DNA of 64,000 nt, from the NCBI GenBank assembly GCA_009663185.1, contig VJZX01000014.1:16583-80582 (forward strand), in the 5' to 3' direction. Numbering within the stretch: position 1 is the stretch's first letter; every line of letters begins with the position of its first letter. The translations under genes and the position numbers were made by a program. Shown here piece after piece: positions 9,483 through 26,145 of this stretch. This stretch comes from Isoptericola halalbus. Lineage in GTDB: Bacteria; Actinomycetota; Actinomycetes; Actinomycetales; Cellulomonadaceae. The notes under the pieces were generated by a model. It saw only the letters and a program-made list of their open reading frames with translations. It was not told where the DNA came from and did no database searches.

Positions 9483-9500
9483 CGGAGCGTTGACCCCGCG

Positions 9501-9566
9501 CGGCCGGTGGCTACAGTGCGTCCCCGTTTCTGGATGAGATCGGGGACGAACTGTAGCCACCGGCCG
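9501..9566. repeat. Family A palindrome, copy 1
   Basis: Inverted repeat with 26-nt arms (9501-9526 and 9541-9566, one mismatch) and a 14-nt loop. The core is GGTGGCTACAGT plus GTCCCCG and its complement. It lies between the convergent Excalibur and secreted-protein genes, 18 nt and 11 nt from their stops, so it may form a shared terminator. Related palindromes are at 12035 and 13162. Confidence 0.9.
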
Positions 9567-9577
9567 TGACGTTGACC

Positions 9578-12034: not shown

Positions 12035-12098
12035 TGCCGGTGGCTAGAGTTTGTCCCCGTTTTCGGTCGAGAACGGGGACAAACTCCAGCCACCGGCA
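12035..12098. repeat. Family A palindrome, copy 2
   Basis: 27-nt arms (12035-12061 and 12072-12098, one mismatch) around a 10-nt loop; core GGTGGCTAGAGT plus TTGTCCCCG. It lies 23 nt after the histidine kinase stop and 50 nt before the AbiEi-like gene on the same strand. Confidence 0.9.
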
Positions 12099-12147
12099 AA
12101 CGTTGTCCACAGGGGGTCAGCGGCGTGGGCCATACTTCTGGTCGCAT

Positions 12148-13215
12148 GTGCCCGTGACGCGACCTGATCCGCTCCCCGCCGAGCTCCGTGCGCGCGCCAC
12201 CCGGCAGGAGTGGCTCGTCGACACACGCCAGCTCGCCGAGGTCGGCCTCAGCCGCCAGCAGGTCAGCAAGCTGTGCACTCGCGGTGTGCTGACGCGCGTG
12301 GCATACGGTGTGTACGACCTGATCCCCGAGGACCCCGATGCCCGCACGGAGGACCCGAGCTCGGCCCGCGACGACCCTCTCGACCATCGGCGACGCCGCT
12401 CAGCGTGGCTCGGGATGCTCACCCATGGTCCTGATGCCGTGGCCGTCGGCCAGACGGCGCTCGTCCTGCACGGCATCCAAGGGCTGCCGAAGCGGCCCAA
12501 GGTCGAGATCGCTCGGGCGGACCGCCGGGAACGGCGCGCCCGCGACGGCGTCGCACTCCGCCGTTACTCCGGGCTCGACCGGCTGGCCCGGGTCCAGGGA
12601 CGCCTCGTGGTCCCGGTCGAGCAGGCGTTGGCACAGGCAGTTCCGGAGCTCGGGCGCCGCCACGCCGTCGCTTGCCTGGACAGCGCCGTCCACCAGCGGC
12701 TGATCTCGGCCGAGGGAGTCCGCCGCGCGCACGACGCCGCCAGGGGCCGCCGGGGCGTCGAGCGGACGCACTCGTGGTGGGACCTCGTCGACGGCCGGGC
12801 GGAGTCCCCTGCCGAGACGTGGGCGCGTCTCAGCTGCGTGGACGAGGGCATCCCTCCGGACGTGCTCCAGCAGAAGTTCGTCGTCGAGCGGGACCGCATC
12901 GCCCGGGTGGACATGGCGTGGTGGCTGGGCCCGGGGCGATGGCTCATCGCGGAGATCGACGGCGCGAAGGCGCATGAGGGCGCGCTCGTGCGCGACAGCC
13001 AACGGCAGAATCCGCTCGTCGGGGCAGGGAACGTGATACAGCGGTTCACCGGGCTCGACGCAGGGAGCAGCACGATCGGGCCGAGCCTCAAGCCGTTGCT
13101 CGCCGCTGCGGGTTGGCGGCCTGGCCGACCGGTACCTCGCGGCCCGCAGCTGCTCCCGGACGTCGGTGGCTACCGTTTGTCCCCGAAGCTGGCCGGAATC
13201 GGGGACAAGCTGTAG
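12148..13215 (+). CDS. AbiEi-type antitoxin-domain protein with a nuclease-like C-terminus
   Basis: 355-aa protein. The N-terminal winged-helix segment (RATRQEWLVDTRQLAEVGLS, LCTRGVLTRVAYGVYDLIP) matches the AbiEi antitoxin N-terminal domain. The middle carries WLGMLTHGPDAVAVGQTALVLHGIQGLP. The C-terminal part has RVDMAWWLGPGRWLIAEIDG with a spaced D/E-x-D pattern resembling PD-(D/E)XK/DUF559 nuclease folds, followed by RDSQRQNPL and VIQRFT. No AbiEii-like nucleotidyltransferase toxin is next to it, so it is an orphan. GTG 12148 is preferred; GTG 12154 is possible. The last 17 residues and the TAG stop are encoded by a family A palindrome. Function inferred only from domains. Confidence 0.7.
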   Translation: MPVTRPDPLPAELRARATRQEWLVDTRQLAEVGLSRQQVSKLCTRGVLTRVAYGVYDLIPEDPDARTEDPSSARDDPLDHRRRRSAWLGMLTHGPDAVAVGQTALVLHGIQGLPKRPKVEIARADRRERRARDGVALRRYSGLDRLARVQGRLVVPVEQALAQAVPELGRRHAVACLDSAVHQRLISAEGVRRAHDAARGRRGVERTHSWWDLVDGRAESPAETWARLSCVDEGIPPDVLQQKFVVERDRIARVDMAWWLGPGRWLIAEIDGAKAHEGALVRDSQRQNPLVGAGNVIQRFTGLDAGSSTIGPSLKPLLAAAGWRPGRPVPRGPQLLPDVGGYRLSPKLAGIGDKL

Positions 13216-13223
13216 CCACCGGC
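13162..13223. repeat. Family A palindrome, copy 3
   Basis: 24-nt arms (13162-13185 and 13200-13223, three mismatches) with a 14-nt loop. It is embedded in the 3-prime end of the AbiEi-like gene and supplies its TAG stop at 13213-13215. It ends 9 nt from the end of the convergent metS gene. Confidence 0.85.
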
Positions 13224-13231
13224 CGACAAGG

Positions 13232-23704: not shown

Positions 23705-24481
23705 ATGAGCGTCGTCGACCTGAACAGCGACCTGGGCGAGGGGTTCGGCCGCTGGCGCCTCGGCGACGACGAGGCGATGCTGCGCGTCGTCTCGAGCGCC
23801 AACGTGGCGTGCGGCTTCCACGCCGGCGACCCCGCGACGATCCGTCGCACCGTGCGCGTGGCGGTCCAGCGCGGCGTCGCGATCGGGGCCCACGTGGGCT
23901 ACCGCGACCTCGCCGGCTTCGGGCGCCGGCGCATGGACGTGCCGAGCGAGGAGCTGCAGGCCGACGTCGCGTACCAGGTGGGTGCCCTGGCCGGGCTCGC
24001 GGCGGCCGAGGGCGGCCGCGTCAGCTATGTCAAGCCGCACGGCGCGCTGTACAACACGGCGGCCGTGGACGAGCGGGTGGCCGCCGACGTCGCGGCCGCG
24101 GTCGCCGACGTCGACCCGTCGCTCGTGATGCTGGGCCTGCCGTGCAGCCGTGCGCTCGACGCCGCGTCGGCCGCGGGTCTCGCGACGGCCGCCGAGGCGT
24201 TCGCCGACCGCGCCTACGAGGCGGACGGGACGCTGGTGCCGCGGACGCGACCGGGCGCGGTGCTGCACGACCCCGACGAGGTCGCGCGGCGCATGCTGCG
24301 GCTCGCGACCGAGGGCGTGGTCGAGGCGGTCGACGGCAGCCTCGTGCCCGTGCGCGCCGACTCGATCTGCGTGCACGGCGACACGCCCGACGCCGTCGCG
24401 ATGGCCGAACGGGTCCGGGCGGTGCTCACGGCCGCCGGCGTGCGCGTGGCGCCGTTCGCGGGCGCCGGTGCCCGCGGGTGA
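23705..24481 (+). CDS. pxpA: 5-oxoprolinase subunit A (LamB/YcsF family)
   Basis: 258-aa subunit of the bacterial ATP-dependent 5-oxoprolinase PxpABC, which converts 5-oxo-L-proline to L-glutamate. Family motifs are [11 protein letters not shown] at the start, [30 protein letters not shown] and [17 protein letters not shown] lies 12 nt before the ATG. The stop overlaps the GTG start of the fused pxpBC gene by 4 bp, so the complex is made stoichiometrically. Confidence 0.93.
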
Positions 24482-26145
24482 CCGTGCGGGTCCGCGCCGC
24501 GCGCGACGACGCGCTGCTCGTCGAGCTCGGCTCGCTCGACGAGGCGGTGGCGCTCGCGGCGTCGCTGCGCGCCGAGCCGCTGCGTGGGGTCAGCGAGGTG
24601 GTCCCCGGGGCGCGGACGCTGCTCGTGCCGTTCGACCCGTGGACGACGACGGCCTCGGCGCTCGCCGACGAGCTGCGGTCCCGCCCACGGGCCAGCGCCG
24701 AGCGGGCGGGCTCCCGCGACGTCGAGATCCCCACCGTGTACGACGGCGAGGACCTGGCGTCCGTGGCGGACCTGCTGGGGTGGAGCGCCGAGGAGCTCGT
24801 CCGGCGGCACACCGGGGCGCGGTTCACGGTCGGGTTCGTGGGCTTCGCCCCCGGGTTCGCGTACCTGGTGGGCGATGACGAGGCGCTCGTGGTGCCGCGC
24901 CGCGCGACCCCGCGCATGCGCGTGCCCGCCGGGGCGGTGGCCATGGCCGGCCCGTACAGCGGCGTGTACCCACGCGAGAGCCCGGGCGGGTGGCAGCTCG
25001 TGGGGCGTACCGACGTCGCGGTGTGGGACGTCGACCGCGACCCGCCCGCGATCTGGCAGCCCGGCGACCGCGTGCGGTTCGTCGCGGTGCGCGCGGAGGC
25101 GTCGGCGCCCGATGAGGTCGGTGATCCGTCGCCGCATCGGCGACCCGGGACGCCGACCTCACGACGGATCACCGACCCGGTGACGACGCCGCCCGCGCTC
25201 GAGGTCGTCAGCCCCGGCCTGCAGGCGCTCGTCGAGGACCTGGGCCGCCCGGGGCACGCGGCGATGGGCGTCTCGACGTCGGGCGCGGTCGACGCGCGCA
25301 GCCTGCGCGCGGCGAACCGCGCCGTCGGGAACCCGGTCGGCACTGCCACGATCGAGGCCACTGGCGGCGGGCTCCGGCTGCGGGCGCACGGGCACGTCGT
25401 CGTCGCCGCGGCCGGCGCGCTCGTCCCGCTCACCGTGCACCCGTCCGCCGGCGAGCGGTGGCGCGCCCCGCTCGCGCGGCCGGTCGCGCTGGCCCACGGC
25501 GACGAGCTCGAGCTCGGCCCGCCCGAGCGCGGCGTACGCACCTACGTCGCGGTGCGCGGCGGGCTCGACGTGCCCGAGGTGCTCGGGTCGCGATCGAGCG
25601 ACGTGCTCGCCGGTCTCGGCCCTCCACCCCTGCGCCCGGGCACCTTCTTGCGTTGTGAGCGGAGTATTGGCCCAGGTTCGAACGCACAACAGGGCCAATA
25701 CTCCGCTCACAGCGTGGGGGTCGTCGACGTCGGGGACGTCGGGGCGCGCGACCCCGGGTCGCTCCCGGCGCCGGGGGACGTCGTCGAGCTGCGCGTGGTG
25801 CTCGGCCCGCGCGACGAGTGGTTCGACGACGCCGCACTCGACCTCCTCGCGGAGCAGGAGTGGGAGGTCACGGACCGGTCGAACCGCGTGGGCCTGCGGC
25901 TCGCGGGGGTCGAGCCACTGCGGCGCGCGGCCGCGTTCGTCGATGCCGAGCTGCCCAGCGAGGGCTGTGTGACCGGCGCGCTGCAGGTGCCGCCCGACGG
26001 CCAGCCCGTGCTCTTCCTCGCCGACCATCCGCTCACCGGCGGGTACCCGGTGGTCGGTGCGGTCCAGGCCTCCGACGTGGGCCTGGCCGGGCAGCTGCCG
26101 CCCGGCGCCCTGGTCCGCTTCGTCCCCTCCGCGTTGCTCGCGTAG
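24478..26145 (+). CDS. pxpBC: Fused 5-oxoprolinase subunits B and C
   Basis: 555-aa fusion. Residues 1 to about 205 are PxpB (KipI-like, with [15 protein letters not shown] and [21 protein letters not shown]). Residues about 235-555 are PxpC (KipA/biotin-dependent carboxyltransferase-like, with [40 protein letters not shown] and VLGPRDEWF). With PxpA it hydrolyses 5-oxoproline using ATP. The GTG start overlaps the pxpA stop. Two large inverted repeats are read through in frame, one in the B/C linker (about 213-233) and one in a PxpC loop (about 392-413). The stop TAG is part of the hutG -10 box. Confidence 0.9.
25113..25177. repeat. In-frame palindromic insertion in the PxpB/PxpC linker
   Basis: Perfect 16-bp arms (25116-25131 and 25162-25177; GGTCGGTGATCCGTCG and complement) with a second, competing 9-bp pair TGAGGTCGG/CCGACCTCA (25113-25121, 25153-25161) and a small internal hairpin CGCCG-CAT-CGGCG. 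It encodes the whole linker between the B and C domains. Confidence 0.85.
25651..25714. repeat. In-frame palindromic insertion in the PxpC domain
   Basis: 23-nt arms (25651-25673 and 25692-25714, one mismatch) around an 18-nt spacer with a TTCGAA centre. It is visibly AT-richer than the surrounding gene. It encodes [20 protein letters not shown] between LRPGTFL and the GVVDVGD block. Confidence 0.9.

Follow-up and report, generated by a model that had tools for sequence, protein, structure and literature searches.

A 64-nt palindrome lies in frame within the pxpC part of a pxpBC gene of Isoptericola halalbus, and it raises the question of where such a sequence comes from and how an enzyme comes to carry it. 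We followed it in a stretch of 64,000 nucleotides (64 kb, hereafter the window), in the host genome (G000; 4.10 Mb, 110 contigs) and in relatives. Three features frame the question, named here by the repeat families described below.

24478-26145, + strand: pxpBC, 555 aa, with CT_C_D and CT_A_B domains; carrier of the insert
25113-25177, no strand assigned: family B palindrome in the PxpB-PxpC linker, arms 25116-25146 and 25147-25177, 81% complementary
25651-25714, no strand assigned: family A palindrome of 64 nt within pxpC, arms 25651-25673 and 25692-25714

The palindrome in pxpC and its site across the genus

An earlier note on this DNA had described an in-frame palindrome in PxpC with 23-nt arms, one mismatch and about 21 encoded residues, and re-measurement bore this out: the 23-nt arms are 96% complementary with one mismatch, the spacer is 18 nt long and the whole encodes 21 residues. 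TTCGAA, which the note had placed at the centre of the spacer, is present in the spacer but off its centre. The base composition does differ from the flanks as claimed: GC is 59% in the palindrome, 77% in pxpBC and 73% across the window. When near-perfect stems of 20 bp or more were sought, the window yielded four hairpins, the PxpC palindrome among them, and three first-order Markov controls yielded none each; a 20-nt pattern of the PxpC arm, allowed up to three mismatches, matched only its own two arms in the window (0 matches expected, by 100 shuffles). A second palindrome, in the linker 470 nt upstream, is likewise real and its arms differ, and with three further places in the host genome it belongs to a separate family (family B), so that two different elements have indeed hit one gene.

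A structure model of PxpC (mean pLDDT 91) places the insert at residues 158-178, with mean values of 42-55 for the blocks covering residues 161-190 and 95-96 for the flanking blocks on either side. This fits a tolerated insert, most of which is predicted to be a low-confidence loop. Among the 18 genomes of the genus Isoptericola, pxpBC was found in 17 (G009 had no pxpBC match); the hairpin is present at the PxpC site in 5, decayed in one (G004) and absent from 10, and the sequence of G015 is cut before the site. The residues are thus not shared by most PxpC proteins, which is what would have counted against the note, and no such insert was seen in further actinobacterial PxpC proteins (46 loci, L026-L071), except in L026, whose sequence is that of G016.

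Fold z-scores of the site hairpin are -7.1 in G000, -7.3 in G016, -4.7 in G017, -2.0 in G014 and -3.6 in G010; the decayed form in G004 has a z of +0.7 and scores 17 bits with R1, the covariance model of the family introduced below. Between G000 and G014, 8 of 28 pairs have changed on both sides and still pair, and 9 are broken in one or both genomes. The hairpin occupies one and the same position in two clades of the genus, so its insertion is not recent; it may have been a single event followed by loss in G002 and G011 or several events, and the pxpBC tree is compatible with either. The pxpBC gene of G017 (L108) has one in-frame stop (TAG) upstream of the palindrome and may therefore be broken. 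Most of the 17 PxpB-PxpC linkers of the genus (L106-L122) form strong hairpins with widely different arms, those of G012 and G007 being near-perfect and 64 nt long.

Dispersal, location bias and dialects of family A

A blastn search of the host genome with the PxpC palindrome returned 30 rows, and 19 copies, one of which has an internal gap, align across 64 columns. R1 was built from these 19 copies and finds at least 34 places in the host genome, at least 29 of them at 50 bits or more, with PxpC counted; these are lower bounds, the model having scored 150 of 3748 candidates. The inner third is variable and the outer arms hardly change, yet pairing is kept: 92.7% of the cells of the alignment are paired, 10 of 28 pairs show compensatory changes on both sides, and none of 500 shuffles reached the covariation score. 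By eye, the arms of A1 read GTTGTGAGCGG, with no GT[AG]G foot of REP, and the dialects of some relatives read TTGTGGGC.

R1 is unspecific at low scores, giving 46 bits to a family C hairpin (described below) and 32 bits to a linker hairpin, so weak R1 matches at genus, family and order level are not counted as family A. Rfam had no match in the window at gathering scores and, for the element itself, two sub-threshold miRNA matches only, and the phage and plasmid collections had no DNA match to the family A element. A further hairpin family, with AACGAGCGTGCTG arms, is common to G000 and G009 (L237:1407-1469, L245:154-214).

Dispersal on this scale bears on how the palindrome arose. Template switching, which could produce a local quasi-palindrome in place, makes inverted-repeat arms alike according to the sources consulted and may help to keep the arms matched, but it leaves the same arms at some thirty other places unexplained; as an origin it is refuted, and we give it practically no credence. 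It is also highly unlikely that the copies are MITEs of a classical IS with a DDE transposase. Their form as short dispersed inverted repeats and the empty sites in relatives would suit such elements, but exact family A arms occur in the host genome only as pairs 38 nt apart, save two single arms that abut N and look like assembly artefacts. Nor did the own genome show a parent element bounded by the arms, and no target-site duplication was seen at the diverged empty sites in relatives. A reading as DNA uptake sequences was rejected on the ground that no arm stands outside a pair except the two that abut N.

Beside PxpC, 31 own copies were placed relative to genes by means of a gene caller that uses codon usage and had been trained on 28 ORFs of the window; they include three weak ones (28-42 bits: L133, L134, L135) and leave out two partial places (C52, C71), and a few gene assignments differ between two rounds of placing. 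Five of the 32 copies lie inside genes, namely the one in PxpC, two in a single gene, one in a MoeA gene and one in an ABC transporter gene. The two that share a gene are 552 nt apart and both in frame (L014:1529-2144, own contig C16); this long gene has a weak sacsin-domain match, below the Pfam cut-off. Four of the five in-gene copies, PxpC included, are read in the frame that gives RC..HS, and the MoeA copy in the other open frame.

The 27 intergenic copies are strongly biased in location: 16 lie between convergent genes, 11 between tandem genes and none between divergent genes, against 8, 29 and 10, respectively, for the gaps of the window (n = 47), an enrichment at convergent gaps (Fisher p 0.0003) and a depletion at divergent ones (p 0.011). 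Forty-one high-scoring copies in 13 relatives are distributed similarly (convergent 27, tandem 12, divergent 2). The sequence beside the hairpins holds at most 4 T in 8 nt, a value reached in one of 64 flanks, and thus no U-tract. This placing is that of a bidirectional terminator without a U-tract, the terminator role itself being putative.

One alternative starts from that role: the hairpins would be U-tract-less terminators kept at gene ends by selection, the nuclease genes described below would merely be insulated by them, and a general process would spread the copies. Copies after stop codons and between convergent genes agree with it, as do the U-tract-less I-shaped terminators reported in mycobacteria, for and against which a review gives work in the parts consulted; work cited in the same review has the mycobacterial polymerase requiring a U-tract (PMC12288462), which the family A hairpins lack. 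Selection for a hairpin also leaves unexplained the shared arms, the in-gene copies and the dialect replacement set out next, and we regard this account as unlikely.

Arm sequences are common to the copies within one genome and differ from those of other genomes or genera, forming dialects. In five of the five genomes with other copies, some copy elsewhere in the same genome resembles the PxpC copy more closely than any orthologue does, in a comparison that covers more own copies than orthologues and has one own copy (L020_2509) out of register; for the PxpC copies of G010 and G016, another genome's copy is nearer or equally near. Of 16 own loci checked in G017, six hold an element and ten none; of the same number checked in G016, nine hold one (one cut by a contig end), four hold none and three have no sequence to compare. 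At five of the six occupied G017 sites, the position is taken by a 75-nt hairpin of another dialect. This 75-nt hairpin has a small inner stem (L138, L148, L152, L153) where G000 has 64-nt copies.

The copies of two genomes resemble each other no more closely at a shared site than at different ones. With L020_2509 left out, G000 and G017 copies differ by 6.17 mismatches at the same site (6 pairs) and 6.35 at different sites, and G000 and G016 copies by 2.00 (7 pairs) and 2.07. Within G000, the copies at these sites differ from one another by 1.3-1.8 mismatches; within G016 the figure is 3.29, no closer than the G000-G016 cross pairs (2.07), and the copies within G017 are mixed (5.50).

Hairpin-flanked cassettes and their nuclease-like protein

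Two own copies of family A, at C16:45680 and C16:46708, flank one gene in the host genome (cassette A), and the same layout is found in G016, G017, G011 and G014. These five genus cassettes lie at one locus and are therefore counted once. In each, 53-67 nt separate the first hairpin from the presumed start, and the second hairpin adjoins the end of the open frame or overlaps it; the gene has one orientation relative to the flanking sequence in G000 and G011 and the reverse orientation in G016, G017 and G014. In G034, which belongs to another genus, the layout recurs with an unrelated hairpin sequence and 33-40% protein identity, and further cassettes with related proteins and other hairpins occur in G006 and in the window (12035-13224). 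The first hairpin lies 49 nt before the presumed start in the window cassette (cassette C), 137 nt in G006 and 196 nt in G034. The features of cassette C and of a third host cassette, B, are as follows.

9499-9568, no strand assigned: family C palindrome, solo copy 2.5 kb from cassette C
12035-12098, no strand assigned: family C palindrome, left hairpin of cassette C
12148-13215, + strand: cassette C gene (start codon presumed), AbiEi-like in its N-terminal part and with a Vsr-like motif at the C-terminus
13161-13224, no strand assigned: family C palindrome, right hairpin of cassette C, overlapping the gene end
L263:2071-3241 (own contig C78): cassette B, a gene of 326 aa between two relatives of the linker palindrome

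Family C is unrelated in sequence to the PxpC and linker palindromes. Cassette B came from a prediction stated first, that a nuclease gene would lie between two relatives of the linker palindrome 1.05 kb apart; the sequence then showed a 326-aa ORF, whose product matches the family A profile (1.4e-13) and, by blastp, the A and C proteins, but reaches no Pfam model. The host genome has at least three such systems, A (the family of the PxpC palindrome), B (that of the linker palindrome) and C, and two of them have hit pxpBC. The earlier reading of the locus is thus supported as largely right; the cognate nuclease cassettes lay beyond what that view of the sequence could show.

Among the R1 matches listed, hairpin pairs 1.0-1.3 kb apart have a nuclease-like gene between them in seven of seven cases, and pairs 1.6-4.4 kb apart in G009 have no such gene in three of three. 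No cassette gene was found near the copies of G010 and G015 (17 regions) or G009 (5 stretches), genomes that carry copies. Three Arthrobacter plasmid homologues, found by protein alone (28-32% identity), all have a hairpin at the 3' end, and two of the three have a matching upstream hairpin, one right-hand copy being degenerate. Plasmid StoSoilB13-2 carries a solo hairpin (L260:5082-5155) with, by eye, the same arms as the hairpin beside the nuclease gene of StoSoilB13-1, from the same strain. An order-level search gave R1 matches in five genomes outside the family, and the loci of two (G180, G200) are further cassettes. Viral contigs held no relative of the nuclease, phages gave one partial protein match, and the plasmid collection held no relative of the cassette C protein.

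A profile of 12 cassette proteins, run over the 1.17 Mb examined, matched 15 distinct genes, 12 of them its own source proteins; hairpins stand on both sides of 13, on one side of one and beside none of one, a share that is not an unbiased rate because most of the 1.17 Mb was chosen for hairpins. The unbiased cases are window cassette C, the three plasmids and L069, the last a weak homologue (28.5 bits, cut by the locus end) with no hairpin nearby. The pairing of hairpins is cognate: left and right hairpins share runs of 14-59 nt in each of 13 cassettes, and hairpins of different cassettes share at most 11-15 nt, same-locus A set aside. Nine loci are independent (genus A, G034, B, window C, G006, G180, G200 and two plasmids), and the same protein group between matching hairpins at all nine is a further fact that terminators kept by selection leave unexplained.

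The product of the cassette A gene carries MTES_1575/DUF559 domains at its C-terminus; in a PF18741/PF04480 test of six family A proteins, DUF559 was above cut-off in all six and MTES_1575 in three. The cassette B and C proteins reached no Pfam nuclease model (neither DUF559 nor MTES_1575), and their link to nucleases comes from their similarity to A and a shared motif, D..[EQ].DG, present in 12 of 12 proteins. AbiEi models match the N-terminal part in B, C and G034 and not in the G000 family A protein. An AlphaFold model of the latter (6 sequences) is poor as a whole (mean pLDDT 58.7) and better over residues 200-300, and a PDB search with it gave no match at E 0.001; the best was the homing endonuclease I-Bth0305I (3r3p; E 0.03-0.05, prob 0.99-1.00), which we take to be Vsr-like, with TnsA and an AbiEi antitoxin among the lower matches. 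Across the six A cassettes, protein identity falls with arm mismatch (r -0.89; 53 of 720 permutations as good), a correlation driven by one distant genome. Judged from its sequence, the cassette protein is a putative relative of Vsr-type nucleases, related to AbiEi, DUF559 and MTES_1575 proteins, and MTES_1575 is described as a Vsr REase fold in the parts of PMC3710099 consulted.

The same source, to the extent consulted, reports Vsr-type REase domains in defence proteins (PMC3710099). Together with the AbiEi-like N-terminal part in B, C and G034, this would suit a defence- or toxin-like nuclease whose palindromes are operators, decoys or self-protection sites and spread otherwise. Dispersal to gene ends and into genes, and hairpins at both ends of the gene, exceed what an operator calls for, and we hold this explanation to be improbable.

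A proposed cut-and-repair system and its likeness to known ones

We think that these elements probably form a selfish palindrome system akin to REPINs and REPtrons, with a Vsr-type nuclease in RAYT's stead, and that two families of this system have hit pxpBC. The PxpC palindrome would be one dispersed copy, not itself autonomous, of a selfish palindromic repeat (family A) whose likely source is the cassette: a hairpin, a short gap, an AbiEi-like/Vsr-type gene and, at the gene end, another hairpin of that family. The nuclease would recognise its own hairpin dialect and cut or nick DNA there, and repair, we infer, would copy the ~64-nt hairpin into new sites and in place of older copies; it seems likely to us that the nuclease is what spreads the hairpins. 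Most copies would settle at gene ends, where they may act as bidirectional terminators, and a copy of fitting length and frame could persist within a gene as a tolerated loop, as in PxpC. Copying by cut and repair would account for the dispersal, for genome-wide dialects that replace copies at shared sites and for cassettes flipped between their hairpins.

More broadly, and with a little less assurance, we favour a class of selfish DNA in which AbiEi-Vsr-type nucleases, each with its own dialect, copy ~60-75-nt hairpins through actinobacterial genomes by homing-like cut-and-repair, with several systems per genome, and write in-frame loops into proteins. In the published, largely open-access papers searched, no title or abstract listed ties these nucleases to palindromic repeats. 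The nuclease-hairpin system would be a testable answer to how RAYT-less genomes gain palindromic repeats, and a way for mobile DNA to add new loops to conserved enzymes. It also offers a candidate function for a branch of DUF559/MTES_1575 proteins, and its matched nuclease-hairpin pairs are a ready set for specificity studies.

REPINs, in the parts of the work consulted, pair two 16-mers in inverted orientation, keep the length of the spacer between them, show compensatory changes and are tied to RAYTs (PMC3116915); REPtrons, and REPs inserted in frame in tnpAREP genes, are described in PMC6006769, also consulted in part. Family A resembles REPINs in its inverted conserved ends, kept spacer length, compensatory changes and mostly intergenic dispersal (PMC3116915, PMC6006769), and the cassettes resemble REPtrons, as far as those sources go, in having an enzyme gene between cognate repeats and several repeat types with their own enzymes in one genome. 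This shared architecture would speak for REPINs mobilised by a RAYT, a Y1 HUH transposase, but PF01797 matched none of the 18 genus genomes and one of the 150 family genomes, control profiles did match, and the PF01797-positive genome, G088, is not among the 41 genomes listed with an R1 match. RAYT mobilisation is accordingly a very remote prospect, rejected for the genus at the level of this Pfam model, and the system is not filed as REPIN/RAYT. The genus is without a Y1 HUH transposase by that model, the flanked gene is a putative AbiEi/Vsr-type nuclease relative, and the hairpins differ too, being near-perfect and about 62-75 nt long, with no obvious GT[AG]G foot in the main family A dialect of the host genome. 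In the literature consulted, RAYT is the sole enzyme tied to short palindromic repeats; the cassette nuclease would be a second, unrelated one in the same gene-between-repeats layout.

Other systems share single traits. Rickettsia palindromic elements (RPEs), the precedent for palindromes in frame, are, according to the text consulted, palindromic repeats of 105-146 bp that lie in frame in conserved protein genes, usually in one frame, and are tolerated (PMC2229807). The in-frame palindromes in protein genes found here, with 5 of 32 own copies in genes and 4 of those 5 in one frame, are like them, whereas by size our elements are about 64 nt; they also lie mostly at gene ends and go with a nuclease cassette, and no linked enzyme was seen described for RPEs in that text. 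DNA uptake sequences also have short-repeat dialects that differ between related species, in the part of PMC3630211 consulted, whereas family A arms occur here only as whole hairpins. I-Bth0305I (PDB 3r3p) is the best fold match of the C-terminal domain, if a weak one (E 0.03), and a likeness lies in the copying by cut and repair that we propose; in our system there is no intron or intein, and the cargo would be the hairpin itself.
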